A DNA stretch of 64,000 nucleotides from NCBI RefSeq assembly GCF_042453785.1, contig NC_091673.1, positions 5,420,501-5,484,500 of the forward strand, given 5' to 3'. A model generated the notes under the pieces. It ran no database searches. It was not told the DNA's origin and saw nothing but the letters and a program-made list of their open reading frames with translations. Positions within the stretch are counted from its first letter, which is position 1, and each line of letters starts with the position of its first letter. A program made the translations under genes and the position numbers. Positions 221 to 39,100 of the stretch are shown here, piece after piece. The DNA is from Malus domestica (taxonomy: Eukaryota; Streptophyta; Magnoliopsida; Rosales; Rosaceae).

Positions 221-1108
221 AACCCTATTTCTGTACTTTTTAATAAACTCTAGAATTATTTTTGCCAAAGGCAACTTACTAGAAGGGGAGTGAAATGTTA
301 AAATGTCAAAATAACTTTGAATGCAAATCATGTGCAAATTTATTTTGGATGGAAAACTTAACAAAGCTAGAATCAGATGACAAAATAATAATTTTGAAAA
401 GTGGGTATTACAAATTGTTGAAAATTAGATCATACGACAAATTAAAAAGAGTGCATAAAGAATTATTCATTTTTATAAACAAATTATGCGATGATGCGTG
501 TTGAAATTTATTTTCTCTCTTATTTTAATTAGTTTTATTTACATATATTTTAGGTTGTGCAATAGATAAGAAATCTTGCATATATTAAGCAAAATTGTGT
601 CATAATTGAATTAATCAAGCAATAATAAAAAGGAAAATTAATGAAAATTAATGAAAATGATTTGAAAATTTTGAGTTTTAACAATAAGGATAAAATAAAT
701 GGTAAAATAAATAATACCAAGATTGACCTTTTAATGTAAAAATGTGATTTTTCGTTAAAATAAATAGTATCAGAAATTTTTTGGTTAAAGTTTCCATAAT
801 AAAATGACAATCATTTTGAAGGGAGAGACCTCGTCACGTTAATGCAAGAATTCAAAAAACCGGAAGAATTAATTAATTATGAACTGGCTATTATTTATAA
901 AAAGAAAGTTAATCATCATAAAAATAGAAAAAATATCACCCAACAGGGCCTCTGGGCCACCAACCGCTTTCGAGATTTTTTGTCTTCTCTCTTGGTCTCC
1001 ACCTCACTTCACGTGACCCTCAGATTCAAGGTCTCCTTTTTATCATTCGTGACTCCTGAAACTTCACTCTTTACACTCGCCTCCTCACACCCGTTCCCAT
1101 CCACATCC
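221..1108. other. AT-rich upstream region of the LRK10L-type gene
   Basis: No convincing gene is seen. About 630-800 is a decayed reverse-orientation relative of the TTAACG MITE found whole at 40073-40214: it shares the motifs gagttttaacaataaggata and tttttcgttaaaat. The last 250 bases are rich in C and T and are the likely promoter and 5' leader of the downstream kinase gene. An upstream ATG at 842 is in frame with that gene, but the residues it adds look like leader sequence. Confidence 0.6.
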
Positions 1109-3019
1109 ATGCCTCCACCACACTCCGTCGCACTCTCAGCCATGATCCTCCTAACACTCTACTCAGCTGCCACCGCCGCCCGCTCATGTTTCCCAAAACC
1201 ATCGTCCTCCTCCACATTTTCATGTCCACCATTCACTTCGCCGCCGCCGTTCCCCTTTTCTTCTTCACCAGGCTGCGGCCACCCTTCTTTCCAAATCCAA
1301 TGCTCTGCCCCCCACTCCACCATCTCCATCAATAACCTCTCTTTCTCTCTCATCAGCTACGATGCCAACGCCTCCTCACTCCTTCTCTCTCCCCACAGCA
1401 CCAACTTAACTGCCACAAACTGCTCATCCTCTCACTATTCTTCCATCCCCAGCCGATCCATCAACATCTCCGCCTCCCCATTTCGAATATCCGACGCCTC
1501 CTGCTCCCGCCTCTCAGTTCTCAAGCCTTGCTCCCCGCCGAATCTTCCCAACTGCAGCCATTGCCCTTGGGAATGCAAGCTCATCAAAGACCCACTCAAG
1601 CTTCTCCACGACTGCGGATCTCCGCACCCCCCTGTCACCCACCAGGGCTGCCACGCAGACGTTTTGAGCTTTCTCGACTATTTCCTCAAAATTGGGATCG
1701 AGCTGGAGTGGGACGAAGCTCAAGACTCTTACTTTTCCAGCTGCAGAGCTTGCAAGTCCAACAATGGCTTCTGCGGCTTTAACTCATCCGACCCAAAAAA
1801 GCAATTCCTCTGTTTTCACGCCGAACCTCACCTTACGCCGCCGTGGATCAGCAAAGACAACCCGAACCGAATCGCCATCTTGTCCTCTGTGTTCACATTA
1901 ACTTGCTTCCTACTCGTCGTCTCTGTTATCATAGCCGTCTTCAGGTCCAAAAGATTAAGCTCCGCCGCAACAGAGGAAGACCCAACAACTCTGTTCCTCC
2001 ACCGCCACCGCTCCGCCAACCTCCTTCCGCCAGTTTTCACATACGAAGAGCTCGAATCCTCAACAAACCACTTCGACCCGAAACGCAAAATCGGGGACGG
2101 TGGGTTCGGGTCTGTCTATCTGGGTCAGCTCTACGATGGCAGAGTCGTCGCCGTAAAATACCTCCACAAACCCCTCCGCGGCGCCGCCGCATCCGGGAAA
2201 GCCTTCTCCAACAAATGCTTCTGCAACGAAATCCTAATCCTCTCCTCCATTGACCACCCAAATTTAGTCAAACTCCACGGCTACTGCAGCGACCCGAGAG
2301 GCCTCCTTCTCGTCTACGACTACGTTCCCAACGGCACCCTCGCCGACCACCTCCACGGCCCCAAAAGCCTCCATCGGAAAGGGTCGATGACGTGGCAGGT
2401 GAGGGTCGACATTGCTCTGCAAACGGCCATGGTTATGGAGTACCTGCACTTCTCGGTGGTGCCGCCGGTGGTCCATAGGGACATAACGTCGTCGAATATC
2501 TTCATCGAGAAAGATATGCGGGTTAAAGTCGGGGACTTTGGGCTTTCCAGGCTCTTGGTATTCCCCGAAACGACGTCGTCCAGCTCCGGGTACGTTTGGA
2601 CCGGTCCGCAGGGGACGCCCGGTTACTTGGACCCGGATTACCACCGGTCGTTCAGGTTGACCGACAAGAGTGACGTGTACAGTTTCGGTGTCGTTTTACT
2701 GGAGCTGATTTCGGGGATGAAAGCGGTGGACCAGCGGAGGGACAAGAGGGAGCTGGCGCTGGCGGATTTGGTGGTGTCGAAAATCCAGATGGGCCTGCTC
2801 CACCAGGTGGTGGACCCGGTTCTGGTCGTCGACGGTGACGTATCCGACGGCGTAGATGCGGCGGCTGAGCTGGCGTTCAGGTGCGTGGCGGCGGATAAGG
2901 ACGACAGGCCGGACGCCAAGGAAGTGGTGGAGGAGCTGAAGCGGATCAGAAGCCACACTCGTGGGGTGTCCCGGGTGTCGAGTTCGAATGTGATTGGCGA
3001 TGACGTGACAAAGGGATGA
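1109..3019 (+). CDS. LRK10L-type receptor-like protein kinase
   Basis: A plasma-membrane receptor kinase that probably senses wall or apoplastic ligands and signals by Ser/Thr phosphorylation. The 636-residue product has a signal peptide, a cysteine-rich GUB_WAK-type ectodomain (about residues 25-240), one membrane span (about 255-277) and a full kinase domain. The kinase shows the glycine loop GDGGFG (329-334), K350, the HRD motif with catalytic D458, and DFG with D476. The sequence HRDITSSNIF and the GTPGYLDPDYH activation segment are like Arabidopsis At1g25390 (LRK10L-1.5), recalled from memory. The start was placed at 1109 because a signal peptide follows; an in-frame ATG at 842 would add 89 basic, atypical residues. 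The gene has no intron. GC content is much higher than in the flanks. Confidence 0.9.
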   Translation: MPPPHSVALSAMILLTLYSAATAARSCFPKPSSSSTFSCPPFTSPPPFPFSSSPGCGHPSFQIQCSAPHSTISINNLSFSLISYDANASSLLLSPHSTNLTATNCSSSHYSSIPSRSINISASPFRISDASCSRLSVLKPCSPPNLPNCSHCPWECKLIKDPLKLLHDCGSPHPPVTHQGCHADVLSFLDYFLKIGIELEWDEAQDSYFSSCRACKSNNGFCGFNSSDPKKQFLCFHAEPHLTPPWISKDNPNRIAILSSVFTLTCFLLVVSVIIAVFRSKRLSSAATEEDPTTLFLHRHRSANLLPPVFTYEELESSTNHFDPKRKIGDGGFGSVYLGQLYDGRVVAVKYLHKPLRGAAASGKAFSNKCFCNEILILSSIDHPNLVKLHGYCSDPRGLLLVYDYVPNGTLADHLHGPKSLHRKGSMTWQVRVDIALQTAMVMEYLHFSVVPPVVHRDITSSNIFIEKDMRVKVGDFGLSRLLVFPETTSSSSGYVWTGPQGTPGYLDPDYHRSFRLTDKSDVYSFGVVLLELISGMKAVDQRRDKRELALADLVVSKIQMGLLHQVVDPVLVVDGDVSDGVDAAAELAFRCVAADKDDRPDAKEVVEELKRIRSHTRGVSRVSSSNVIGDDVTKG

Positions 3020-5944: not shown

Positions 5945-6845
5945 CTAATTAGACGGAGGAGGAGCGGCTGCAGCCCTTGCTTTGGCAGCAAGAATCTTAG
6001 CAATCTCAACAAGCTTGTCAGTTTCAGGCATAACATCCTTCACAGCAGCATGAGCACAAAACTTGTCAGCCCATTTTACCAGCCCCGGCGTTTTCGTCTG
6101 GTCAAGCAGTTTGATTCCATGCAGCTTCTCGTTTACTCTGAGCCACCCCAAGAAGCACCCGAACGCAATGTCCAAGTATCCGATCTCATCTCCACCGAAA
6201 AATACGTTGCCTTTGCTGGATTTCTCAAAAGCTTCCTCCAGCAGCGCCAGCCCTTCTGTCACTTGCTCGATTGCTGCCTTCTTTGCCTCCTCTCCTTGTG
6301 CAAGACCAATGCCTTTCATGGATGGGTACCACTACAACCATTTCAATTGAATGAGACATAAGTTAGTAACATGGATTAATTGTACCAAAAGCTTAAGCTA
6401 GCAACAAAGAAAGACGTTTTGCTTGGGCTTTGAATAAATACTTGTTATGCTTCTAATAAAAGCGTTTCTATTAGTAAGTTGGACGTTTATGAGAAGTGTT
6501 TTACGCATGACCATAATAAATCATTACCTTCTCGCTGATATAGGCAGCCCAAAATCGTGCAGTAGCGCGATCGTAGGGGTCAGAAGGGAGGATAGACGGA
6601 CCAGATGCCCAAACTTCGTCAATGTACTCAACAATGATGAGAGATTCACAAACTGGTTTGTCACCATGAATGAGAACTGGGACTTTCTTGTGGACTGGAT
6701 TGGACTGAAGAAGAAGCTCGCTTTTAGATCCGAATGTCTCCTGAAGAAACTCGTAGTCGACGGATTTGAGGTTAAGGGCAATGCGAGCCCTCATCACGAA
6801 CGGACTCGGCGCCATTCCCAGAACTTTGACGTCGCTCTCGCCCAT
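5945..6845 (-). CDS. Tau-class glutathione S-transferase 1
   Basis: Cytosolic enzyme that conjugates glutathione to electrophiles in detoxification and stress responses. Exon 1 is 6528-6845, the intron 6332-6527 (GT-AG), and exon 2 5945-6331, giving about 234 residues. The N-terminal thioredoxin-like domain carries the Ser-containing active-site motif PSPFVMR, the cis-Pro segment KKVPVL and the glutathione-binding ES pair in KPVCESLI. The C-terminal helical domain begins WYPSMKG and holds the [16 protein letters not shown] core. The single-intron position is typical of tau GSTs. Resemblance is to Arabidopsis GSTU17/18, from memory. It is the outlying member of a three-gene cluster; its sequence is clearly more diverged than the other two are from each other, so it arose by an older duplication. 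Confidence 0.92.
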
Positions 6846-7908
6846 AATTAATCCTCGACTAATTAGCTTAACACTCAACAAGTGATCTAATTCAAACACT
6901 GATGAGTTCTACAGGGTTTAGTGTATGTGCGTGTTGGGTGCATCCAAACCAGGAAACACAAGGATTAAGTAGGAAGAAGAAAATGTTTGGTATCAATGAG
7001 CCTACTGGCATTAGTTTGGTGCATTTGGTGGGTGGACGCATGTTTCAACTTTGAAGGGTAGGCAACATTCTAAGTTTTTTTTAATTAAAAAAAAAAGTCA
7101 TTGAGTCAAAATCAAAAGAATGACTTACTTGTACCTAGTATACTATTGTGGCATTCTCGGCTTAATATTACGACGGATCTCTTTCATCAAGGGTATCAGA
7201 TTAAGTGATCTGTGTCTTTTAAATTTCATCAAATGGTTCATTTGTTTTGATCTCTTAAAAGCTGTAATAATTTTTGGTAGCCTGTTTTGATTCCTTAAAA
7301 GCTGTAATAATTTTTTGCCGTTGGATGAAATTTGAAAGGTTCAGATCACTTGATCTGATGGCTTTCTTCTCTAATAATACGATTCCAAAATCATTAAATT
7401 AGGGTTTTGAGATTTTCCAGACCTGTGCCAAAATAAAAATTGCAAACCTTGACTTTTTTTAGTGAAGTTTTTCGATTCATTCCAAGAAATGAACCGTAGG
7501 ATTGAAATGTTTTGAGCCCCTGTGCACAAGATGGAAGTAGCACAAGTGAATCACACAACGATAAATAGTTGACAACTAGCTATACAATTGTTTCTTTCAA
7601 CTATATGACAACTATCTATACAATTGTTCTTTTCAACTATACCGTTGCCCATATTATAATCAGGATGAATATATATAAAAGACATCTATTGAACTAATAG
7701 ATGCACGTAAATGATTTATTTCACCATCAAATAAACATAAAAACCAGACACAAAATAAAACAAAGTCCATGAGTTTACCAAACTACAGCATCGTCTAATA
7801 CATCCGACTTAATAATTTACCAAACTACAGGATTGTCTAATACATCCGACTTAATTTCTTAATCACTAGTTTGAACAACAAGATCCATTGATTTGTTTCA
7901 CTAATTAA
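6846..7908. other. Spacer between GST genes 1 and 2
   Basis: Promoter of GST 1 at its left end and 3' flank of GST 2 at its right end. It contains the MITE at 7174-7372 and a local 46-bp tandem duplication (ttaccaaactacag...) at about 7776-7850. No other gene is seen. Confidence 0.55.
7174..7372. mobile_element. MULE-like MITE with internal duplication
   Basis: About 199 bp with inverted repeats around cagattaagtgatct and agatcacttgatctg. The flanks AATATTACGA and AATAATACGA look like a 9-10 bp target duplication. Inside, a segment of about 40 bp (cttaaaagctgtaataattt) is duplicated in tandem. Confidence 0.7.
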
Positions 7909-10070
<2,162 letters not shown>

Positions 10071-10541
10071 CTAAAGCTCTCGAAATGCAAATGCAAAATC
10101 TGTGTTTTGGGGTTCCTGTTATTTATGAATGTGCATGAAAGGTGAAAGCAGAAGGAGGATTTATGAAGAGGTTTGGAAAGTGAATGTATTTGGTGTGAAC
10201 GTAATGACAATAGGTGTGGCAGTGGGGAAAGGTTTGAAACGTAGGAAAAAAATTTAATGTCCTGTGTGCAAAATTTATTGTCCTGTGTTCCAAGTCCATA
10301 ATTCGTAATGACAATAGGTGTTGGTGTGAACGTAATGACAATAGGTGTGGCACTGTGTGGATGGAAAGAGACTTGCATAGTTGCATGTACTTTTCAAGAT
10401 GACGGTGAGGTGTTCTGAGTCAATAATACGATGCAAATGTGAGAATATTAGAACACATAACACTATATTATTTATTAGTGTTGTTACTGAGTATGGATAG
10501 TTGAGAGAAACTTACATAAGTTGACAATGAATTGAGCCTAT

Positions 10542-10757
10542 GGACCTGACTTTTCAGCCCTCTCAGTTTCTATACACTTTTATCCCCTTCTATTTTGTAC
10601 GATGATGGTTAAGTCACGTTAACATTTTATATTAATTTTTTTATAAGAATAATGAGGTACAAAATAATAGTGATATAAAATGTTGACGTGATTTAACTGC
10701 GACTACACAAATAGGAAGGGATGAGAGTGTATGTGAGAGGGCAGAGAAGCCAGGTCC
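10542..10757. mobile_element. MULE-like MITE, family A copy 2
   Basis: 216 bp with ends GGACCTGACTT and AAGCCAGGTCC. It is flanked by a perfect TTGAGCCTAT duplication (10532-10541 and 10758-10767). The duplicated copy B has the uninterrupted site TTGAACCTAT at 17037-17046, so this element inserted after the tandem duplication (or copy B lost it precisely). Confidence 0.92.
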
Positions 10758-11160
10758 TTGAGCCTATTACTTGCTGTCACGTACTTTAACTTACCCGCTT
10801 GACATGTCATGATCTGTTTGCGATACCGTCTTTGAATGGGTGTTTAGGTTCAGCGTTTTCAACTTGAACCTACTTTTGGTTCGTCTTGTGTGTTCGGACT
10901 TCAGATAGGGAATACGATGTTGTTGGTGTGTCGTGTGGCGGAGATTGGAGCACGTAAGAGGAAATTTGAAGTGTGTAGGCTTTGGAACTGCGTGGCTTAC
11001 TCGGCATTCAGTCATTTCTGCTGCGAGTGGACTTTCTTGTTCGTACATGTGAACAAATTTGAAGTCTGTAGGCTTTGGAGACAGGAGGACCGAGCTGAGA
11101 GCTGTGAAGGTGAGTGACAGTTGTATACGAAGATGCTACTTCTGGAAAAGTAAAGCAGAA

Positions 11161-11208
11161 GCACCAGTGGTCAAGTGGTAGAATAGTACCCGCCACGGTG
11201 ACCCGGGC
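11161..11208 (+). pseudogene. tRNA-Gly(GCC)-like fragment
   Basis: GCACCAGTGGTCAAGTGGTA is the 5' half of a plant tRNA-Gly, followed by the anticodon stem with CGCCACGG and then GACCCGGGC. It resembles the usual tRNA-Gly(GCC), but the T arm and 3' acceptor strand are missing and the variable region is shortened. It is therefore a truncated tRNA pseudogene or the head of a SINE-like insertion. It lies in the part of copy A that copy B lacks. Confidence 0.7.
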
Positions 11209-11235
11209 TAGTTATTGAATAAACTGAGTTGTATA

Positions 11236-11395
11236 GAACTTTAACGAAAAATGAAAGTCTCTCGTACTGTTCATTTTAACGAAAAATCATATTTTTACAT
11301 TAAAAATTCAATTATAGTACTATTTACTTTACCTTTTATTTTATCCTTATCGTTAAAACTCAAAGTTTTTAAGCTATTTTTCTTAGTTTTCCTTA
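11236..11395 (+). mobile_element. TTAACG MITE, degenerate copy
   Basis: Contains ttaacgaaaaatgaaag, tgttcattttaacg and cttatcgttaaaactcaaag, matching the intact element at 40073-40214 block by block. Termini are blurred and no clear target duplication is seen. Confidence 0.7.
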
Positions 11396-11753
11396 GTTAT
11401 TACTCCTTGCGTAATATTTCAGAATTCAGACGCATATAGAAAATGGAATTCGAAATTCCAGCATCTCTTCAAAGTTTCTTCTTTTGGACTGACAATGGAA
11501 GCATACAAGTAACAGAAATCTTTGCAAAAACAGTCACGTTACAAGTCTATCGGGGTTCAAAGCAATGGCATGGCTCGTTGATACCAGAAACTCCTTCGGG
11601 GGCAGCCCGACATTTGCAAATTCTTCCGACTTCCGAGTCTTTCATTCTCACTCGGTCTCTTGGGTCTTAAGTTGGCCCTTGAAGCGGTTGTATTTACGAT
11701 TTGCCCATGGTAACGCCGTATCAGCCTTACCTTTTGCTTTGCTCATTTTCCGG

Positions 11754-11950
11754 AATGCGAGCACTTTTGCATCGTCTCTGCTTTTACACCCTCCGACTCT
11801 ACCAAGACTGCTGAAATGCAAGCACTTTTGCATCTTCTCTGCTTTTACACCCTCCGCTTTTACACCCTCCGACTCTACCAAGACTGCTGAAATGCAAGCA
11901 CTTTTGCATCTTCTCTGCTTTTACACCCTCCGACTCTACCAAGACTGCTG
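11754..11950 (+). repeat. 61-bp minisatellite, three units (copy A)
   Basis: Tandem units of about 61 bp beginning aaatgcaagcacttttgcat and ending ccaagactgctg. The middle unit carries an extra 16-bp internal duplication. The homologous array in copy B is at 17305-17487. Confidence 0.85.
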
Positions 11951-12532
11951 CACCCAGTCAAAGTAGTTAACATCAGAAGAATGCTGACATAACACTTCTA
12001 AGCTGCATCTAACGGTTTCATGCCAAATCATGAAAGAAGAAAAATTCACACATACCAGGAGGGGTGTGTTTAGACAACATTTGGGCCGTGATGAAATCCA
12101 ACAGATGAACTTTTGAGTGAAATAGCCATCTTGAGATTGCTTGGATTTGTTTACGGGACATCTTATTCCTTAGGGCCCGGCTTCGTCTATCTTGGATTTC
12201 ATATCAAATGTTCGATAGCCAGGTACATACGTAGGTCCCTGGGTAACAAAGAGTTGTAGCTCACAACGTGCACAGATAGATTCATCTTGTAAAAGGTAAA
12301 TGTCTAGAAATGATGCCATTAAGAACTTACTAACATTTCAACATTATCATTTCAAAAAGGCTGTGCAATATCCTTGGATCATACTAATGAGAAAATTCTT
12401 TTGTACGAAGTAAGGGATCTGGAGATGATCCATTTCCAATTTACCAAACTACAACATTGTCTAATACATCCGACTTAATTTCTTAATCACTAGTTTAAAC
12501 AACAAGATCCATTGATATGTTTCACTAATTAA

Positions 12533-15500
12533 TCACTTGGAAGCACCTGCAGCTCTCAATCTGGCCTTAAGAATCTTAGTAACCTCAGCCAACTTGTCAG
12601 TCTCCGGCATAACATCCTTCACAGCAGGATCTGCACTGAACTTCTCAGCCCATTTGGCCAGCCCTGGGATCTTTGCTTCGTCCAGAAGTTTGACCCCATT
12701 CATTTTCTCTGTCACTCTGAGCCACCCCAAGAAGCACCCGAATGCAATGTCCAGGTACCCAATTTTGTCCCCACTGAAGAAGTCCTTGCCTTTGCTGGTC
12801 TTTTGAAAGGCTTCCTCCATTTGAGCCAGCCCTTCTGCAACTTGCTCGACTGCTGCCTTCTTTGCCTCGTCTCCTTCAGCGGCAGCAACGCCTCTCAGCG
12901 ATGGAAGCCACTGCACCCATTTGAATTCATTACTTAATTAGAATAAGAGTGCGTTTGTTGCACCAGACTATTTCAGACTGGATTAGCTTCAGGAACTAAG
13001 CTGAACTAGGGTTGGGTTCGGTTTAAATCGGTTCGGTTTTTTGCCAAAACCGAAACCAAACCGAAATTTCGGTTCGGTTCGGTTCATTTTTTTTTCGGTT
13101 CGGTTTTTTTTCGGTTCGGTTTTTTTCAAAAAATGAAAAACATTGAAATTTTAAATTTTAACATATCCAACACAATCATAACATAAGCATTTTAACTAGA
13201 ATCAAAGACAATGAAAATAAACATTTAAAGTTGAACTAAAATCATCAATCAAGTCTTCCAAAGTCCAAACTAACAACCTCACAACACAAAAATCGTACAA
13301 ATGACATAGAAAAGTTAAATTGTATGATGTTGTTCAAAGATCAGGGTTGTTTGCTTGTAACTGCATGTTGACAACTTGATTAGTAAAAGTAATGCGTGGG
13401 TGGATTTATTTAGTGTGTGTTAGATTCTTTTCCATCACAAATTACCCAAGTAATCTACCCGAAAGAAATGTTTATGGATTCTGTTACATGTTATATGAGA
13501 GTAGATTTGGAAAAGAAAGCTGGGACAGAAGTAGACAATGCTATGGAGATAGATGTAGGTACTTCAGAAAGAGGTCTGGTTCCGGAACCTTATATGGGGG
13601 ATAAATAATAGGTTAGGGTTTAGAGTTTTTATAGGCCTTTTTTTAATATTTTGAGCTTAAAGTTTGGCAACACATTGGGTTTAGAAAATAATACCGAAAA
13701 CAAATAATTAAATAAGAAAATTAATTTAATTAATTCGGTTTGGTTCGGTTTCTAGATCACTAAAACCGAACCAAACCAAAAGAATTCGGTTTGGTTCGGT
13801 TCGATTTTCTGTTTTTTGAACCCACCCTAAGCTGAACTAGCTTAGATTAGATTAAGCTAGACTAATTTAGTGAAGTGTTTGGTGCAAGGTCGGGCTAAAA
13901 AGCTGGACAATAACAAATATATTTTTAATTCATATTTTATTAATATTTTATATTATTTAATACATATTTAGTAATATTTTATTACTACCACTATCTTTTT
14001 TTTTCCAGAAACCGTCCATCCCCATTCCTAATTCTTTTCCACTAATCTCCCCATTTCTTTCCAAGTTTGCTCCGTCCCTTTCCCTATGTTTCTTCCTCTT
14101 TCTTCTTCGCCCCTCTCTCTCTCTTCATCTCCATCTTTTTCTTCCTATTTCTCTCTGCTCATCTCCCTCTTTTCTTCCTAATTTTTCTGGGACCTAATTG
14201 GCAAATTAAAACCCATTCAAAGTCTGGGTCATTTGGGTATTCATGGGTCTGCTTCTCCAGCGTCAATAGCAAAGGTCTGCGATCAGGGAGTCTGGACTAG
14301 GTGGAGTGTGAGCAGAGTTGCTGAGCGTTTCAGACGCACAACGATTTTGTATTTTTTTTTCGCTTTTTTGTTCTAAATTTTGGATTTGGATCTAGTTTTG
14401 AAAATGAAAATATTGCATAAATTTTTGCCTTTTGTTTCCAATTTTGTGGGATATGGGTTTGAAAATGGTGGATGATAGGGGCGAAGCAGAGCAGAGTTTG
14501 TATATATGACCTGGGTTCCACATCTTGCGAGTAACAAGTTGATGGGAGGGCGAAGCGAGGAGGAACGAAGCAGGAGGAGTTGGGCTTAGCAGTCATGCCG
14601 ATTTCGAGGGGTCTCGCTAAGACCCCCTAGCGAACTACTTAGTCCCGTTTAGTCGGGGTGAGTGTCATTAAAACTTGTCTTCATTTGTATCAAACACTGG
14701 ACTAGACTCCCACTTAGTCCAGTCCAGTCTAATAAATGCTAGTGAGTGCAAACAAACACACCATAAATGTGCAACTACGTGTACAGTGCTTTTCGACAAA
14801 AATTTGCACGTCTCATGTTGTATATCTCATTGGTTTTTCTATTTCCCTAATCACACACACGATGTAATGAGAAATAAAGAAAAAGTGGTATAAAAATTAA
14901 TTCATAGGACTCTCTCTCTCTTTGTTTCATTTTAACTAAACTATTACCACTCAATACCATTTCTACGTCATTTAGTACTATGGTGTAGTGGTGTTCCTCT
15001 TCACTTGTAACTTATAAGTGAGAGGTCTTAGGTTCGATTCTCGCTAAAGACGAGTTTGAACTATATTATTGCTAGCACATTGTGAGACTAAGCTCACCCC
15101 CTCCCCCTTGGTGTAGATATTATAGTTTGTTAAAAAAAAAAAAAAACCATTTCTACAAAAAAAAAAATATTCAACAATATCTACAAAAGTGAACATATTT
15201 TAGGGCTTGTTTGGAAAATTCTTTTGTACGAAGAAGTATGCATATATGCTTTTGTGTTTCTAAAAGGAGTAATTAGAAACCCCACATTTTTTTCCAACTT
15301 AATTAATTATTTTTACAAAATTTGATTAAGAAGCTTTGATCAATTGCCAACGCAACAATTTTCTATTTATTTAATATACTAGCATTTGCCTGCATACTTT
15401 ATTTATATGAATAAGGAGGGAGGGAGGGAGAGAGAGAGAGAACATGGGAGGAATGGGAGGTTTTTGTTTTTGGTTTTTATTTTTTTTTAAATTTTAAATT

Positions 15501-16656
15501 AGAGATATTTTAACATCATCTGTAGTGAGGTTTCAATAAAAACAGTAAAATTTGGACATCTGAAATTACATTATTGCCCATCTTTTTTTTTGTGTAATAG
15601 AAAACTGAGTTGTCTTTTCACCCATTTTTAGTTGACAAAGAGGGTTTCGTTAATTAATAGAGATACATGTGTATATATATCTACTTAAACTAGCTAACAA
15701 CTAATTTCCTACAATCTATGAATTTTAAATTCGTATTTAAACTTACGGTACATTTGAAAATAAACAAACCAACTTTTAGTACATTTAGAATTTAAAAGTA
15801 CAAAAATGTACTAGAAATTCAAATGTTACATAAAATCAAATGTACCAATATTATAGATAATCAAACGCACCTATAATTTGACCCAAAAAAAAAACACACC
15901 TACAATTTGACCAAAAAAAAGGCGCACCTACAATTTGACCAAAAAAAAAGCGCACCTACAATTTGACCAAAAAAATCACACCTATTATAAAATTATAGAA
16001 AATAAATGTTCAATCAAATTCTTAAAATAAACAAATGTTTAATCAACGAAATTGAAAAACAATGCACTTATATCAAAATGCCCCTTTCTAAAAACACTAT
16101 TAATCATTCTATAAGTAATTCGAAACAGATGTTATTTGAGTCATATTAAAGAGAAAGACGATCAACAAATCCCTTTAAACATATTTTATTAAGTAATGGA
16201 AAAACAATAGAAAAAAAAAACAAAGAGCAACATAATCCCTCACATTTAACTGGTTAATCCAAACAAAATTTAATAAATGAACGAAATTAGCCTGCAAAAA
16301 TTAAAAATTAAGGAGACGAACAAAAACCATGCACTTACCTTCTCATCGACGTAGGCAGCCCAAAATCTTGCAGTAGCGCGATCCAACGGGTCAGAAGGGA
16401 GAATCGACGGGCCTGAGGCCCAAACCTCATCGATGTACTCCACAATGATGAGAGACTCACAGACGGACTTATCACAATGAATGAGAACTGGGATTTTCTT
16501 GTGGACTGGATTGGACTGGAGAAGAAGCTGGCTTTTGGCTTCGAACGTCTCCTCAAGAAGCTCATACTCCACTGACTTGATATTGAGCGCGATCCAAGCC
16601 CTCATCGCGTATGGGCTCGGCCACGCTCCCAAAACCTTCACGTCGCTCTTCGCCAT
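12533..16656 (-). CDS. Tau-class glutathione S-transferase 3
   Basis: Tandem duplicate of GST 2. Exon 1 is 16339-16656, the intron 12911-16338 (3.4 kb, swollen by transposons), and exon 2 12533-12910; 231 residues. Exon 2 is almost identical to that of GST 2. Exon 1 has about seven substitutions, several in normally conserved places: MRAW instead of [13 protein letters not shown] instead of HGDKPVCES next to the glutathione site, and changes in FEAKSQ. The catalytic WPSPY segment and cis-Pro are kept and the frame is open. The gene may be functional with altered substrate handling, or under relaxed constraint. Confidence 0.88.
12946..14763. mobile_element. PIF/Harbinger-like non-autonomous element
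   Basis: Ends GAGTGCGTTTGTTGCACC and GTGCAAACAAACACACCA form an imperfect inverted repeat, flanked by TAA (12943-12945 and 14764-14766). The sister GST intron has the undisturbed site gaaTAAatg at 8323-8325. No transposase frame is seen. A hAT-like element is nested at 13007-13829. The remaining unit of about 1 kb includes mirrored ttagactagattaagc-type blocks. Confidence 0.85.
13007..13829. mobile_element. hAT-like non-autonomous element nested in Harbinger element
   Basis: 823 bp. The termini TAGGGTTGGGTTC and GAACCCACCCTA are inverted repeats. A perfect 8-bp target duplication AGCTGAAC lies at 12999-13006 and 13830-13837, the hAT hallmark. Subterminal regions are packed with GGTTCGGTTT motifs in opposite orientation at the two ends. 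A frame of about 60 codons at 13417-13608 has no recognisable function. Confidence 0.92.
14966..15146 (+). mobile_element. tRNA-derived SINE (copy in GST 3 intron)
   Basis: A better-preserved partner of the SINE at 8536. It has an A-box-like GGTGTAGTGGTGTTCC, a B box GGTTCGATTCTCGC near 15031 and a poly-A tail, and is flanked by CCATTTCTA repeats. Confidence 0.85.
15373..15665. mobile_element. Copy-B-specific insertion in GST 3 intron
   Basis: A segment of about 290 bp beginning near tactagcatttgcctgcata, with a GA-rich tract and the block gaaattacattattgccca. It is missing from the otherwise collinear intron of GST 2. Similar blocks recur at 63160-63240 and 63900-63960, so it belongs to a dispersed family. 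The class is uncertain. Confidence 0.6.
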
Positions 16657-18005
16657 GATCAATGATTCAGATTCTCTATCGAACTCGGAAAGCTCTCAAA
16701 ATGCAAATGCAAAATCTGTGTTTTGGGGTTCCTGTTATTTATGAATGTGCATGAAAGGTGAAAGCAGAAGGAGGATTTATGAAGAGGTTTCGAAAGTGAA
16801 TGTGTTTGGTGTTTACGTAATGACAAAAGGTGTTGGTGTGAACGTAATGACAATAGGTGTGGCACTGTGTGGGTGGAAAGAGACTTGGATGGACTTTTCA
16901 AGACGATGATAGAGGTGTTCCGAGTCAATAATACGATGTAATGTGAGAACGTTAAAACACATAACACTGGATTATTTATTAGCGATGTTATCGAGTATGG
17001 ATAGCTGGGAGAAACTTAACATAAGTTGACAATGAATTGAACCTATTACTTGCTGTCAGTGTCACGTACTTTAACTTAACCGCCTGACATGTCGTGATCT
17101 GTTTGCGATGCCGTCTTTGAAGGGGTGTTCAGGTTCAGTGTTTTCAACTTGAACCTACTTTTGGTTTGTCTTGTTTGTTCAGACAGGGAATAGGACGTTG
17201 TTGGTTTGTCTTGTTTGTTAAGTTGGCCCTTGAAGCGGTTGTATTTGCGATTTGCCCCTGGTAATGCCGTATCAGCTTAACCTTTTTCTTTGCTCATTTT
17301 CCGGAATGCAAGCACTTTTGCATCTTCTCTGCTTTTACACCCTCCGACTCTACCAAGACTGCTGAAATGCAAGCACTTTTGCATCTTCTCTGCTTTTATA
17401 CCCTCCGACTCTACCAAGACTGCTGAAATGCAAGCACTTTTGCATCTTCTCTGCTTTTACACCCTCCGACTCTACCAAGACTGCTGCACCCAGTCAAAGT
17501 AGTTAAGATCAGAAGAATGCTGACATAACACTTCTAAGCTGCATCCAACGGTTTCATGCCAAATCATGAAAGAAGAAAAATTCACACATACCAGGAGGGG
17601 TGTGTTTACACAACATTTGGGCAGTGATGAAAGCCAACGGAAGAACTTTTGAGTGAAATAGCCATCTTGAGATTGCTTGGATCTGTTTACGGGACATCTT
17701 ATTCCTTAGGGCCCGGCTTCGTCTATCTTTGATTTCATATCAAATGTTCGATAGCCAGGTACATACGTAGGTCCCTGGTTAACAAAGAGTTGTAGCTCAC
17801 AACGTGCACAGATGGATTCATCTTGTAAAAGGAAAATGTCTAGAAATGATGCCATTATGAACTTACTAACATTTCAACATTATCATTTCAGAAAGGCTGT
17901 GCAATATCCTTGGATCATACTAATGAGAAAAATTACCGTGATGATAATATCCCAGATGCGAGTCCGCAGGAACTAAAACTGATAATTTCTCTCCAGGAGA
18001 GCAGT
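16657..18005. other. Promoter of GST 3 and 3' flank of PPR gene
   Basis: Collinear with 10044-12395 but lacking the family A MITE and the block of about 0.7 kb with the tRNA relic. The minisatellite at 17305-17487 lies here. From about 17926 the sequence is unique. Confidence 0.6.
17305..17487 (+). repeat. 61-bp minisatellite, three units (copy B)
   Basis: Three units of the same repeat as at 11754-11950, all of regular length, without the 16-bp internal expansion seen in copy A. Confidence 0.85.
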
Positions 18006-23350: not shown

Positions 23351-23829
23351 AAAGGCATCTGCTAATAGGGAAAAGAGAATCATAGAAGATCAAAAGCTAG
23401 CCAATATTCTAGTTTAAGTGGTTATGAGCATTTATTTTTGTATTTGAGGTATTAAGTTCGATTATGTACTTCCTCTACTTCGCTGGAATAAAGAAAACAA
23501 AACAAAAACAAAACAAATAAGCTACTGCCAGCCAAAAATCGAAAGCGTTGATAACATCTCAAACTACATGCTCCTTACTCTCAGCAAAATATTAATATTT
23601 GTATCATCACATCTGATCGTCTAGCATACTATTTTGTTGAATATATCTTACGCTAATTAGATGTCAGTTAAGATGATACAAGTAGTTTTATTTATCGAAA
23701 AACCCCCGCCCCAAAAGTGTAAACTCTCTAAGCTTTCTTCTTCCACTTCATAATATATATACACACACCAAGGCCTCACTTCACACACTTCACACCTTAT
23801 CATTTTCTCCCCTCCAAACTCACAACAAT

Positions 23830-24901
23830 ATGAAGTTTAGCTCTCCTTCAACACCAACTCTCTCCATCATCTTCCTCTCCACCTTCCTCCTCCAACTCAC
23901 CTTCATCTCCTCCCAAATCTGCCAAAGATCCTGTGGCAAACTCCCCCTCAGGTTCCCATTCGGCAGCGACCCCGGCTGCGGCGACCTGCGCTTCAACCCC
24001 CACGTGTCATGCAGCCAGGGAAGCCCCATCTTCACAACCCACACCGGATCCTACCCCATCACCAACATAGACTACACAAACAAAGTTATGTACATCTCAG
24101 ACCTCTCCATGTCAACATGTTCATGCAACCAACAATCCAAAGGTTTTTCCCTAGACTGGGACGCACCCTTCAGTTTCCAAGACGACAACGTTTTTGCCCT
24201 ACTCGACTGCTCGCTTTCCAACTCTCCAGTCTTCCAGCAAAACTCCCTATACAGAGACCAAAAAAACAACTCTAAAGTGTCCCTATGTGACAACCAAGGT
24301 GCCCCGATTTGCAGCTTCTTGTACTCGTGCCAGGCGATCAGCACGATCAACCTCCCGATATCCACGTGTTGCGTTTACACGCCGGTGGATCTCGGGCCGG
24401 CTTTCGAGATGGATTTGGAGAAGCTGCAGTGCAGTTCTTACTCAGGGTTTTACAGCTTCAACGAACATGAGTCTGACCCAAATGGTTGGAACTACGGGAT
24501 TGCCCTCAAATACAAGTTCAGTCTGAACAACGAGTATCCGGACTCGTGTGTTAATTGTGAGAGGAGTAATGGGGTTTGTGGGTATTATGGTAATTACAAC
24601 TCGTTTATATGTAATTGTCCGAATGGGATCAACACTACCAATGATTGCTTCTTTGGAGCTTCTTATAACTATGGTTCAAGGCTTCGATCGTCGCAGATTG
24701 GTACGTATTCAATCTCTCCCTTTCCCTTTATGTGGTTTTGTGTTTCATTTTTTTATTCAAACTCGGAGGAAAGAACGGGAAGTCCACTACCGTAGTCAAC
24801 TTAGCTACGTTAAGTCTATGTTTAATTTTTTTATTTATCTTTATTTTGCAGGGACTTGGTTAATCTATTGCTTGGCTTGGCTATTGCCTTTGATATTGTA
24901 G
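23830..24901 (+). CDS. Kinase-less GUB_WAK secreted protein
   Basis: Extracellular cysteine-rich protein, probably wall-associated. Exon 1 is 23830-24700, the intron 24701-24851 (GT-AG), and exon 2 24852-24901, giving 306 residues. It has a signal peptide (about 1-28), a GUB_WAK galacturonan-binding-type domain (CQRSCGKLPLRFPFG...GCGDLRF), a long middle region and a WAK-assoc-type cysteine cluster (SCVNCERSNGVCGY...CNCPNG). The tiny second exon encodes only a hydrophobic tail (WLIYCLAWLLPLIL), which fits a membrane tail or GPI-anchor signal. No kinase follows. The first domain is of the same type as the ectodomain of the receptor kinase at 1109. Binding to pectin is inferred from the family name, not shown here. 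Confidence 0.85.
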
Positions 24902-31590: not shown

Positions 31591-33380
31591 TAAATTAAAG
31601 ATAAGAGTAAGAGCTAAAAGAATAGATAAATTTTTTTAGTGTACTAGGAAAACGGTCCGGTACATCAAGTGTTATAATATAAGTGGTTGAAAATATTTTT
31701 TTTAAGTATCAATTACTTGTATTATAACATTTGGTGTACCATACCATATTCCTTGCACATTGAAAATCTCTCTTAAGAATGACAATGAGTCAAAGCGGTA
31801 ATGGTATGTCATTAATTAAAATTTGACTCAAAAATAGAAAATATGATTGTAAATGCTCTAAAGAACCAATTCGATCGAACCAACTAATCGAATGACAATG
31901 GCTGAATTTTATGATAGTTTGTGCTAAACTGCTCAGAAATAAACTTATGTATGACGCAAGTTATATGACATTTTTTCGTGCACTTCGGCTAACAAGGTTG
32001 ATAAGATGCCAAGAAAGATAAAATAAGAATCAAGCTTATTAGGCCCAAACTGCTCAAACCAAACTGTCAAATATTGGTCCGGCTTTGGTCTTGGGGAATA
32101 CAAGTCCAATAAGGACCATGCAAATCCTTCACAATATTTTTTTTCTTTTTGGTATAACCGTTATACTATCATATGATATTACAATTCACTTATATTGCAA
32201 TGCGTTTTTATGAGTCGGCTGTACAACTTGCACTCTATTACAATTTACAGGATATGATCTTATCCGGATCTCACCCGCCCAACTGAATTCCTCTCCCAAT
32301 TCCAGGTAATTCCCTTGCTACTTCTCTCATTTTTCGGTTTCAATCCAATGCCCCATGCGGACTTCAGTTAATCTGTGAGTTTTTTCGAAAATAGCACAAT
32401 TTCAAAACTACGAGTTGTAGTACGTTGTTACGACGTTGCCAACTTCGATGACACCCACGCTTTTGCCGATAACCAGCTCCGAGTGAGTCATGATGCCGAC
32501 CGGACTTTGAAGAAGAAGGATCCGGATGGATGCCATCGGAGAGGATCCTATTCCACAATTTACAACATACCAACAACACTAGTTTCAAATACTCATAAGA
32601 ATTCACAGGTGACAGGTCCATCAACCACCACTTGCACTTTGTCAACCAAAAACTTTTCAGCATCATGCACGTAATTAATTAAGTTGAATTTGTTCCCTTG
32701 GCTTAAAATTCATGTCAATGATGAATCGATGAGAGTCACAATCGAGTAAATTATTTTTTTGGATTTAAGTCACGTGTACTACATGTTGAATGTTGAGTAG
32801 CCAAAAATTAATTAAATTGATTATGTACGTTAGCAGTTATCTGGTAAGAAAGTCGCACTTCGCTTTTAAACCAGTATACGTAGTAATATGTCTGCAACTA
32901 CACAAAGACAAAGAAGTTGGCGGTGGAAACAAATAAAGACAGCAGCGAATTGCCGCGCACAACCAAGTTCCCTCTTATCAACGCCACCTTTTTCTCATTG
33001 TTCTAATAAATTAATTAAATCATAATCCAAATTTGTCCCTTTTAATACGAGAGATTTTTCAGTGTGCTCAGAATATGAACACATACGTTATATATGTCAT
33101 TACGTAAGTTGAGGAACACTTTGAAAAAAAAAATACTCATTTCTATGTGCTTTTTAAAATTACTGAAAGTGCTTTAAAAAAAATGTTTATGGGTTTCATA
33201 AGCACTTAAAGTACTTCATACAAAAAATACTAGTTATGTGCTTCTGGTCAGAAATACTTCAAGTGCTTTTGCAAAATTTACTTACATTTTTACTAAAGAT
33301 TGGTTTAAAAAACATTGTCATATGGTTCTAAACGTGTCTTATTTCACTCTACTTATATAATAACATATGACATACAACAC

Positions 33381-33389
33381 TCTTGTTCT
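33381..33389 (+). promoter_or_regulatory. MYCS/CTTC-like motif upstream of GPAT
   Basis: TCTTGTTCT matches nine positions of the mycorrhiza-associated MYCS element (TTTCTTGTTCT, recalled from literature). It lies 265 bp before the start codon and about 80 bp before the TATA box. Function is inferred. Confidence 0.5.
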
Positions 33390-33593: not shown

Positions 33594-33601
33594 GAATATC
33601 C
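33594..33601 (+). promoter_or_regulatory. P1BS-type PHR-binding motif
   Basis: GAATATCC fits the GNATATNC consensus bound by PHR phosphate-starvation factors. It lies 45 bp before the ATG, probably within the transcribed leader, which is an unusual place for it. Confidence 0.4.
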
Positions 33602-33645: not shown

Positions 33646-35366
33646 ATGACTATGGCGAAGTTCCCGACGGTTGATCAGTGCACATCGGATGGACGGGATA
33701 AGCACACGGTGGTCGCCGACATGGACGGGACTTTGCTTAGAGGCCGAAGCTCCTTCCCTTACTTTGCTCTTATTGCCTTTGAGGTTGGTGGGATTCTGAG
33801 GCTCCTATTCTTGCTTTTAGTTACACCACTAGCCGGACTCCTCTACTACTTTGTCTCGGAATCAGCCGGAATCCAAGTTCTCATCTTTGCAACGTTTGCC
33901 GGCGTTAGGGTTTCGGAGATCGAGTCCGTGGCCAGAGCCGTGCTGCCTAAGTTTTACTCGAGCGATTTGCACCCCGAGTCTTGGCGCGTTCTCTCTGCAT
34001 GCGAAAAGAGATGTATTCTTACTGCAAATCCGAGGATCATGGTGGAGCCTTTCTTGAAGGATTTTCTTGGATTCGACACGGTTTTGGGGACGGAAGTGGC
34101 GACTTATAAGGGTAAGGCTACTGGGTTTGTTTCCCCACCTGGTGTGCTTGTGGGAAAGAAGAAGGCAGATGCTCTTAAGAAGGCTTTTGGAGATGTCCAG
34201 CCAGAGATTGGGCTTGGTGATAGGCACACTGACATTCCTTTCATGAAATTATGCAAGGTTCGACAATTTTCATGCTAACTTTTCGTTTTAATTAATACTA
34301 TTTTGTTTTAATATTAACTCTCAATCATATATATATATATATATATGCAAATTCACTAATATATTCTAAAATATTTCATGCAATAAGACATTTATACAAT
34401 TATTCTATTTTTTATTTTATTAGTGTCATCTAACTAAATTTAATTAAAACATGTAAATGTGAAAAATTGTTGCAGGAGGGTTACATGGTGCCAGCAATAC
34501 AAGAAGTGGAAGCAGTAACAAATGACAAGCTACCAAAGCCCATAATCTTCCACGACGGCCGTCTTGTCCAAAAGCCAACACCTCTCGTGGCGCTCCTCAC
34601 CCTCCTCTGGCTCCCCATCGGCTTCTTCCTCGCCTGCCTCCGTATCTCAGCCGGGGCACTCCTCCCCATGTCGCTCGTCTACTATGCCTTCTGGGCCCTC
34701 GGCGTCCGCATCACAGTCAAGGGCACCCCACCTCCCGCCCCCAAGAAACTCACCGGCGTCCTCTTCATCTGCTCCCACCGCACCCTCCTCGATCCCATCT
34801 TCCTCTCCACCGCCCTCGGCCGCCCCATTCCCGCCGTCACCTACTCCGTCTCCCGCCTCTCCGAGTTCATCTCCCCAATCAAGACCGTCCGCCTCAACCG
34901 CGACCGGGCCCTCGACGCCGCCATGATCAAGAAGCTTCTAGAAGAGGGTGACCTGGCAATCTGTCCGGAAGGCACCACGTGTCGGGAACCCTTCCTCCTG
35001 AGATTCTCCGCACTTTTCGCGGAGCTGACGGACGAGCTGGTCCCGGTGGCGATGGTCAACAAAATGAGCATGTTCCACGGGACCACCGCACGTGGGTGGA
35101 AAGGGATGGACCCGTTCTACTTCTTCATGAACCCGAGCCCGGCGTACGAGGTGACCTTTTTGAATAAGCTGCCGGCGGAGATGACGTGTGGGGCCGGGAA
35201 GTCGAGCCATGAGGTGGCGAATTATATTCAGAGGGTTATAGCGGCCAGCCTTTCGTATGAATACACCGGGTTCACCAGGAAGGATAAGTACCGGGCTCTT
35301 GCCGGAAATGATGGGACCGTGACTGAGAAGCCGTTGCTCCAACCCAGTAAAGTCATGGGCTGCTAG
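33646..35366 (+). CDS. Glycerol-3-phosphate sn-2 acyltransferase/phosphatase, RAM2-like
   Basis: ER enzyme that moves an acyl group to sn-2 of glycerol-3-phosphate and removes the phosphate, giving 2-monoacylglycerol. Exons 33646-34257 and 34476-35366 (GT-AG) encode 500 residues. The N-terminal HAD-like domain keeps D25xD27GT and GLGDRHTD, so the phosphatase should be active. The acyltransferase half has CSHRTLLDP (H305, D310), [11 protein letters not shown] (P368-G370) and VPVAM. From memory, the segments [34 protein letters not shown] and the C-terminal half fit Medicago RAM2 better than Arabidopsis GPAT4, 5, 6 or 8. RAM2 makes 16:0 monoacylglycerol for mycorrhizal fungi. A second ATG at 33652 (MAKFPT) is an alternative start. 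Confidence 0.88.
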
Positions 35367-36185: not shown

Positions 36186-39100
36186 ATGGACTCGACGACG
36201 ATTTCACATCTTTCACACGGATCGATTTCGTCGAGCATTGGAGACTCGTGGGAGCTTGAAGGCAATCTTCCGCTCAAAGATCGCCTCAAGGCCTTTAAAA
36301 CCAACCAGTTCGACCCCAACGTCTACGTCACCACCAAATGTCATACCATGAGTGAGAAGGTCCCAATCTCTCTCTCTCCCTCTCTTGATTTTCATATTTT
36401 TCATGAAAATAATGCATGGGAATCTTCACAAATTAGGAAAAACAAAATGGGATTTTCGTAATTATGCAATTAATCGTGTTCACTAATAGTTTTAGTGATG
36501 CATGGTGAAGAATTTAGAGCTAGTTCTCAGTAATTTATTTTCGAAACTATTTGCCTAGTGAGATAGACTTACATGAAATGGGTTCATCGGTACCATGACA
36601 TTCGGAACTATTTGTATATATGGAGTGTATTAGTGGTTTGGGACACTGTGGTAGCGGTGAACACGTTCCACCTAAGTCCAAATCCTGCAGCACAACAAAC
36701 AAGGTCTTACAGTTTATAGGTTGGTGATGATGACAGGAAATAAAGCACCTCCACTCTTACCTTGTTGACCTGAAGAAGGCGTCTGCAGAGGAAATGCGTA
36801 AAAGTGTTTACGCTAATTATCCGGCATTTATCCGGTGAGTGAGCACAATTTTCTTTGAATGTAATGGCGATGATTTTTTAATAAACGTGAATTAGGCCAG
36901 TTGCTTAATCATGAAGGTATTTCCGACTTCTTGCAATTGGGTTTCAATTTCCTCACCCCTTATATTGGAACTTTAGAATTTTCATAACATATTACACCAT
37001 GAAAGTGTTTGTATTGGTTCATTTGCAGTACATCGAGGGAAATCACTGAACTTGAGGGACAACTCCTTTCCATGAGAAATCTCCTCTCTAGTCAGGCAAC
37101 TTTAGTTCACGGTTTATCTGATGGAACTCGAGTTGATTCATTGTCCACTGGCAACGAAGATTTAAATGACGAGGACATATTAGTAGAAAGTAAGGAACTT
37201 TCTGAGATTGAGAACTGGTCAGGAGAATTCGAGGACACCCTCGAGGTTCTATTGGCCGAAAGAAGAGTGGATGAAGCGTTAACTGCCTTGGACGAAGGTG
37301 AACGCATAGTGCAACAAGCTAAGGACAGGAATAAATTAACCTCAGCTGCATTCTTGTCACTGCAGACTACCATCACTGAACAGAGGCAAAAATTGATGGA
37401 TCAGCTGGCAGAGACAATGAGTCAACCTTCCACGCGTATCGTTGAGCTTCGCCCAGCTGTTCTAGCTCTCAAAAAGCTCGGGGATGGTCCCCGTTCACAC
37501 ACGTTGCTGCTCAATGCTCACCATCAAAAGTTGAAGTCTAATATGCAAGGTCTTAGCTTATCTAGCACTTCATATGGCGGAGCATATATCGCTGCGCTTT
37601 CTCAACTGGTCTTCTCAAGCATTGCGCAAGCGGCAAGTGACTCCCTGGCAGTTTTCAGTGAGGAGCCCGCTTATACATCTGAACTTGTCACTTGGGCAGT
37701 CAAACAGACCGAGGCTTTTGCTCAGCTCCTAAAAAGGCATGTTCTGGCTTCATCAGCAGCTGCCGGGAGTCTAAGAGTTGCCGCAGAGTGTGTTCATATA
37801 TGCTTGGGACACTGTTCGCTATTAGAAGATCGCGGGTTGTGCCTCTCTCCTGTCTTATTGAAACATTTCAGGCCAGTCCTTGAGCAGGCATTGTACTCCA
37901 ACTTGAAAAGAATTGAACAGAGCAGTGCTGCATTAGCTGCTGCTGATGATTGGATGCTTCTTTATCCACCGGTAGGCTCACGCCTTATGGGTTCGACTTC
38001 ATCTCTTACTACTATGAGCCAAAACCAGCCAAAGCTTTCAAGCAGTGCTCACAGATTCAATTCAATGGTTCAGGTGATCATTGATCTCACTTTTACTTTA
38101 GTACTTCTTCTGAGATTTCCAACTTAATTCAATTTGTCACTATCACGGCGTTAGGAAAACGAGATGGCAATGGCATAATTTTGACTATGCAGATAGCTTC
38201 TGAACTACTAATTTGTGCTAATAATATCTAATGGATTTAGGAACTTCTCGAGGATATGGTGCCGCTTGAGACCCTGCAGTTGGATGGTCCGGCATTAGAA
38301 GGCATTTTACAAGCGTTTAACTCGTATGTAACTATATTGATGAATGCAGTGCCTGGTTCAGCGGAGACTGAAGAGAACTTGGAAGGATCAAGACATAAAC
38401 TTGTTAGGATGGCGGAGACAGAAGCTCAACAGCTAGCTTTGCTAGCAAACGCATCATTGCTAGCAGACGAGCTGCTACCACGAGCTGCTATGAAGCTTTT
38501 GCCCCTACAGCAGGGTCAGCAGGCTAATAGACCAATGGAAACCCCTAAAAGATCTTCGGACAGGGGAAATCGTGTCCCGGAACCTAGCAGGGAATGGAAG
38601 AGGAGGCTTCAACGCTCGGTCGAGCAGTTGAGAGACAGCTTCTGCAGACTACATGCCCTTGATCTCATCTTCACTGAAGATGGGGACACGCGCCTTAACG
38701 CGCAAATGTACACCAGCATGGACGGAAACCTAGACCCCGAATGGTTCCCATCTCCGATACTTCAGGAACTTTTCACAAAATTGACAACCTTGGCGAACCT
38801 TGCAACGGATATTTTTGTAGGGAGGGAAAGGTTTGCGACTATCCTGCTAATGAGACTGACTGAGACTGTGATCTTGTGGCTTTCAGATGATCAGAACTTC
38901 TGGGCAGAAATTGAAGGGCCAAATCCATTAGGCCCTCTCGGCCTTCAACAGGTATAAACATACATGAGAACAAAAGTAGCTTAATTGACTAAGAGCGTTC
39001 ATCCCCGCACCTAAGTCCAAAGTTTGATTCCCCCTTCCCCCAATATCGCTTGTGAACAATTCTTTATTTAATTTGTATGCAGTTCTATTTGGATATGGAG

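Follow-up and report, generated by a model that had tools for sequence, protein, structure and literature searches.

A probable RAM2-type acyltransferase gene on apple chromosome 13 and its three intact relatives in the RAM2 clade

Does an intact acyltransferase gene on chromosome 13 (C13) of apple, Malus domestica, encode RAM2, the enzyme which supplies lipid to arbuscular mycorrhizal (AM) fungi, or one of the cutin- or suberin-type GPATs which resemble it in domains, and if the former, is it the copy that does the mycorrhizal work? The window analysed here is the whole stretch C13:5420501-5484500 (64,000 nucleotides) in a genome assembly of 651 Mb and 19 contigs, and the gene lies on its plus strand. 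Passages of Keymer et al. 2017 (PMC5559270) describe RAM2 as an AM-specific GPAT6 paralogue of arbuscule-containing cells, most similar to GPAT6, specific to AM-competent plants and lost from non-hosts, and predict that it yields 2-monoacylglycerol in the manner of Arabidopsis GPAT6, which acylates glycerol-3-phosphate (G3P) at sn-2, prefers 16:0 and dephosphorylates the product. Phosphatase motifs I and III are essential according to a section of PMC13401186, and a passage of PMC12365809 has the lipid exported via STR/STR2.

The locus is a single intact two-exon gene (33646-35366), encoding 500 residues without an internal stop once spliced:

33646-34257, plus strand: exon 1, 204 codons, the HAD-like phosphatase half with DMDGT and motif III, GDRHTD
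34258-34475, plus strand: intron, 218 bp, GT-AG, phase 0, after the CK codon
34476-35366, plus strand: exon 2, 296 codons plus stop, the acyltransferase half with the HRTLLD and CPEGTT blocks

Recomputing the exons, splice and translation returned exactly the coordinates and the 500-residue length given in a preliminary description of this DNA, which had also called the product a complete GPAT with intact DxDGT and acyltransferase motifs. The motif positions agree with this (DMDGT at residues 25-29, GDRHTDIPF at 191-199, HRTLLD at 305-310 and CPEGTT at 367-372), phosphatase motifs I and III and the acyltransferase blocks all being intact, as do the Pfam matches to PF23270 HAD_RAM2_N (272.5 bits, cut-off 27), PF12710 HAD (93.9 bits, cut-off 27) and PF01553 Acyltransferase (28.7 bits, cut-off 23). 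The motifs needed for RAM2 chemistry are present, and in its HAD plus acyltransferase architecture with intact phosphatase motifs the protein is like RAM2 of Medicago truncatula and Lotus japonicus. We take PF23270 to cover the GPAT1-8 types and not RAM2 alone, so its name is no label for this gene. In PMC12982185 'RAM2-like' serves merely as a domain name. Two hydrophobic regions (hydropathy window maxima 2.3 and 2.5) would be compatible with an ER membrane enzyme; a search of solved structures with the window protein returned 0 matches at E 0.001.

A genome search with the window protein gave at least 36 matches, 29 of which make up 15 full-length GPAT1-8-type genes that we modelled, and seven short partial matches on C1, C4, C15 and C16, five of them with an in-frame stop, were left out of the gene models. 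Short GPAT-like fragments with in-frame stops lie at C1:16937397-16937606, C1:16.90-17.09 Mb and C15:9.67 Mb, and those on C1 and C15 are probably remnants of decayed GPAT genes. The names GPAT6, GPAT4/8, GPAT5/7 and GPAT1 are our working assignments, made through provisional copies of four of the eight Arabidopsis GPAT1-8 sequences, and the GPAT2/3 label is given solely from tree position beside GPAT1. The genes compared with the window gene are:

Chromosome 16, two exons: RAM2-clade homeologue, 95% identical
C17:3102626-3104143, minus strand: intronless RAM2-clade gene, 515 residues, intact, 80% identical
C9:2677779-2679293, minus strand: intronless RAM2-clade gene, 515 residues, intact, 78% identical
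C12 and C4: GPAT6 pair, 58% identical
C7, three exons: single GPAT4/8 gene, 54.5% identical
C1 and C7: GPAT5/7 pair, 53% identical
C9 and C17: GPAT1 pair, 52-54% identical
Four genes labelled GPAT2/3: 43-45% identical

Each of the four provisional Arabidopsis sequences is nearest a different apple group (GPAT6 at 80-81%, GPAT4 at 79%, GPAT5 at 72-73% and GPAT1 at 63-66%), and none exceeds 56.3% identity to the RAM2-clade genes. The intron after the CK codon occurs in 13 of the 15 modelled genes and is missing from the chromosome 9 and 17 RAM2-clade pair. DxDGT together with GD..(T/S)D is common to seven genes of the 15 (four RAM2-clade, two GPAT6, one GPAT4/8), phosphatase motifs I and III being degenerate in the other eight, and this combination therefore marks an active phosphatase type, not RAM2 by itself.

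The placement of the gene comes from the tree (IQ-TREE, LG+C20, the 15 modelled apple proteins). The window gene, its chromosome-16 homeologue and the intronless 9/17 pair form one clade at 100/100, apart from the GPAT4/6/8, GPAT5/7, GPAT1 and GPAT2/3 groups, and within it the 13/16 and 9/17 pairs are two lineages, each 99-100% supported. GPAT6 and GPAT4/8 group at 100/99 with the RAM2-clade genes outside, the lone GPAT4/8 protein sitting on a long branch, and the GPAT5/7 pair groups at 100/100. Adding the four provisional Arabidopsis GPATs left the picture unchanged: none of them fell in the RAM2 clade, and a long-branch warning arose between GPAT5/7 and GPAT1. The passages of Fawke et al. 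2019 (PMC6767537) on their tree of N. benthamiana, tomato, Medicago and Arabidopsis describe a GPAT clade which unites MtRAM2 with six N. benthamiana genes and is separate from every Arabidopsis GPAT; judged from the four provisional sequences and that description, Arabidopsis likewise has no protein in the clade of the window gene. By elimination, and with group labels from provisional sequences, there is a strong but indirect argument that the four-gene apple clade would be the published MtRAM2 clade. The RAM2-like label of the preliminary description therefore holds up, the clade being separate from the other GPAT1-8 groups and fitting a published clade absent in Arabidopsis. The likeness is drawn through the description of that clade, not a legume sequence, main-text passages searched for RAM2 primer sequences or peptides as references having yielded none. 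Apple also differs in that its clade comprises four genes, divided between two old lineages.

The reading we favour, and consider probable, is that the window gene encodes a RAM2-type enzyme which would supply lipid to the fungus. Three other intact genes of the RAM2 clade accompany it in the genome: its homeologue on chromosome 16 and the older-split intronless 9/17 pair. It builds on the observed gene structure, intact motifs, clade membership among the GPAT1-8 types of this genome and low dN/dS, and takes the chemistry, the arbuscule role and the AM induction from the literature. The product would be an ER glycerol-3-phosphate sn-2 acyltransferase that carries a phosphatase of its own at the N terminus, predicted from published work to place a 16:0 acyl group onto G3P and to remove the phosphate, leaving 2-monoacylglycerol which STR/STR2 would export to the fungus in arbuscule-containing cortical cells. 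A main-text passage of PMC12365809 reports that MdRAM2 and MdRAM2-1 rise in apple roots after AM inoculation, as do MdKASI, MdKASI-1, MdKASIII, MdSTR2 and MdWRI3; the main-text passages hold no apple gene identifiers for the two RAM2 genes, which are given in its Supplemental Data 4. Given this reported induction, a mycorrhizal lipid-supply role is plausible. That the window copy itself feeds the fungus would be a further step from clade membership, since with four such genes in the genome the role is not pinned to this locus.

The four copies differ in age and setting. The window gene is no chance frame, because its 95% identical homeologue on chromosome 16 differs from it by dN 0.024 and dS 0.212 (dN/dS 0.11); the chromosome 9 and 17 copies differ by dN 0.046 and dS 0.35 (dN/dS 0.13), and the low nonsynonymous distance within both pairs points to purifying selection. 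Between the lineages, identity is 78-80% and synonymous changes are saturated, which suggests that the pairs parted long before the homeologues did. As 13 of the 15 family members keep the intron, it was likely lost, or a retrocopy arose, before the chromosome 9 and 17 copies separated. The window also holds other open frames around the acyltransferase gene:

803-3013: wall-associated-kinase-type receptor kinase frame
5948-16695, minus strand: run of open frames resembling a tandem tau-class glutathione S-transferase array (both of the two frames tested have GST_N and GST_C Pfam matches)
23686-24792: separate galacturonan-binding WAK-like frame, 87% identical to its C16 counterpart
37003-38124: frame of the Exo84 exocyst type, downstream of the acyltransferase; C9:12.26 Mb and C17:13.21 Mb hold relatives (65-66%)
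38241-38954: next frame after the Exo84-type one, no Pfam match

C13 and C16 are collinear here: upstream of both acyltransferase copies lie, in the same order and orientation, a galectin-domain gene and the WAK-like one (87%). The galectin-domain gene on C16 is partial, 89% identical over its second half and with an in-frame stop. Counterparts of two of the three neighbours tested, the WAK-like and galectin-domain genes, lie at C16:5.59-5.60 Mb, and the Exo84 neighbour has no C16 match. A block duplication joining this region to the 9/17 pair found no support: none of the three genes checked, a small number (Exo84, the galectin-domain protein and the WAK-like protein), matched near C9:2.68 Mb or C17:3.10 Mb.

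Promoter motifs, among them the MYCS element and AW-boxes as WRI/CBX1 sites, offer at best weak support for RAM2-type regulation. The features upstream of the window gene are:

33135-33320, strand not given: interspersed repeat in the promoter, about 185 bp long and containing imperfect inverted repeats
33381-33388, plus strand: MYCS-like TCTTGTTC at -265, which lacks one base of the MYCS core as published, TTCTTGTT
33594-33601, strand not given: P1BS-like GAATATCC at -52, not in the chromosome-16 copy

The MYCS-like site was rejected as proof of symbiotic regulation, as about 2% of 400-bp stretches would contain TCTTGTTC by chance, the chromosome-16 copy lacks it, and GPAT5/7 promoters match better, with full TTCTTGTT cores close to the start codon. 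GAATATCC fits what we take to be the P1BS pattern, GNATATNC. AW-boxes match three times in the 2-kb promoter of the window copy, where 1.1 matches would be expected (P 0.11, within chance), and the chromosome-16 promoter has one and no MYCS-like core; the 9/17 copies have 0 and 2. Summed over 2 kb, six AW-boxes occur in the four RAM2-clade promoters (3.5 expected) versus two in the 11 others (6.8 expected), a contrast equalled in 34 of 1365 relabellings, which is weak support because the comparison was post hoc and drawn among related copies. The 185-bp repeat, 77-82% identical to at least 39 further genomic sites (of 1215 candidates, 40 were scored), sits in a promoter stretch without a clear counterpart in the chromosome-16 homeologue. 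We suggest, tentatively and with the odds rather against it, that apple RAM2 may comprise two lineages older than the apple whole-genome duplication, an intron-bearing 13/16 lineage and an intronless, possibly retrocopied 9/17 lineage, between which the lipid-supply role was divided or diversified, the 13/16 promoters being further parted by the repeat-containing extra sequence.

The existence of two old, well-supported and intact lineages inside one clade also leaves room for a different assignment, in which the intronless 9/17 pair does the mycorrhizal work and the 13/16 pair is a RAM2-clade paralogue with another role, for instance in the cutin or suberin of roots or seeds. WRI sites give no convincing preference for 13/16 (AW-boxes 3 and 1 against 0 and 2), and the MYCS-like TCTTGTTC occurs in one of its two copies. 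However, all four genes keep the motifs and the lineages are 78-80% identical, and the two apple RAM2 genes reported as induced would accommodate either pair or one gene from each. A passage of PMC5559270 moreover places the Lotus ram2-1 change at base 1663, beyond the roughly 1.55 kb of an intronless coding sequence; if counted from the start codon, this is a weak hint that LjRAM2 has an intron, like the window gene. On balance we regard this assignment as improbable, though worth keeping in view.

Far less probable is that the window gene is a cutin-type GPAT4/6/8 epidermal enzyme misnamed RAM2. It is like GPAT6, GPAT4 and GPAT8 in domains, in an identical set of phosphatase and acyltransferase motifs and in the conserved intron; it is 58% identical to the apple GPAT6 pair, RAM2 has itself been described as nearest GPAT6, and GPAT4/6/8 is the nearest group to the RAM2 clade in the best tree, at 79/81. 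Against this, identity to these genes is only 54-59%, the GPAT4/8 gene has an extra intron, and apple GPAT6 and GPAT4/8 genes are present separately in their own group (100/99). Forcing the 13/16 pair into GPAT4/6/8 with the 9/17 pair outside costs 39.7 log units and is rejected (p-AU 1e-4), as is joining it to GPAT6 alone (p-AU 1e-132). A suberin-type GPAT5/7 identity we can practically dismiss: although the window gene encodes a protein that resembles this type and shares the domain order and conserved intron of GPAT5/7, and a tree with the whole four-gene clade as GPAT5/7 sister passes the AU test (p-AU 0.188), the apple GPAT5/7 genes are separate, 53% identical and degenerate in the phosphatase motifs, having lost DxDGT and motif III, which are intact in the window gene, and the 13/16 pair placed with GPAT5/7 without 9/17 is rejected (p-AU 9e-4). 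Grouping inside GPAT4/6/8 or GPAT5/7 had been named at the outset as an outcome that would overturn the RAM2-like label; the gene falls outside both, and the tree leaves the label standing, the 13/16 pair taken without 9/17 being rejected from each.

A RAM2-type enzyme in one of four clade genes thus remains the preferred reading, and one further claim, that an intact copy marks its bearer as a mycorrhizal host, was overstated. In the sections of PMC13401186 (2026) on its tree, RAM2 is kept in all compared lineages including ectomycorrhizal ones and lost in ericoid mycorrhiza, and it is broadly kept in orchids, fully mycoheterotrophic ones excepted; another section of the same paper calls it uniquely conserved in AM plants. 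Since in that tree ectomycorrhizal and many orchid lineages keep it as well, an intact RAM2 is not a clean host marker, and in apple the inference is unnecessary, since passages of PMC12365809 and PMC9641280 already document it as an AM host by inoculation.

The window gene is a genuine but ordinary RAM2-type family member, the induction of RAM2 in apple roots having already been published. As AM fungi cannot make the RAM2 lipid themselves, RAM2 copies bear on the carbon which a tree crop gives to its fungi. The locus fixes the position of one apple RAM2-clade gene exactly, and 'the apple RAM2' needs to be resolved into four loci ahead of expression or editing work.
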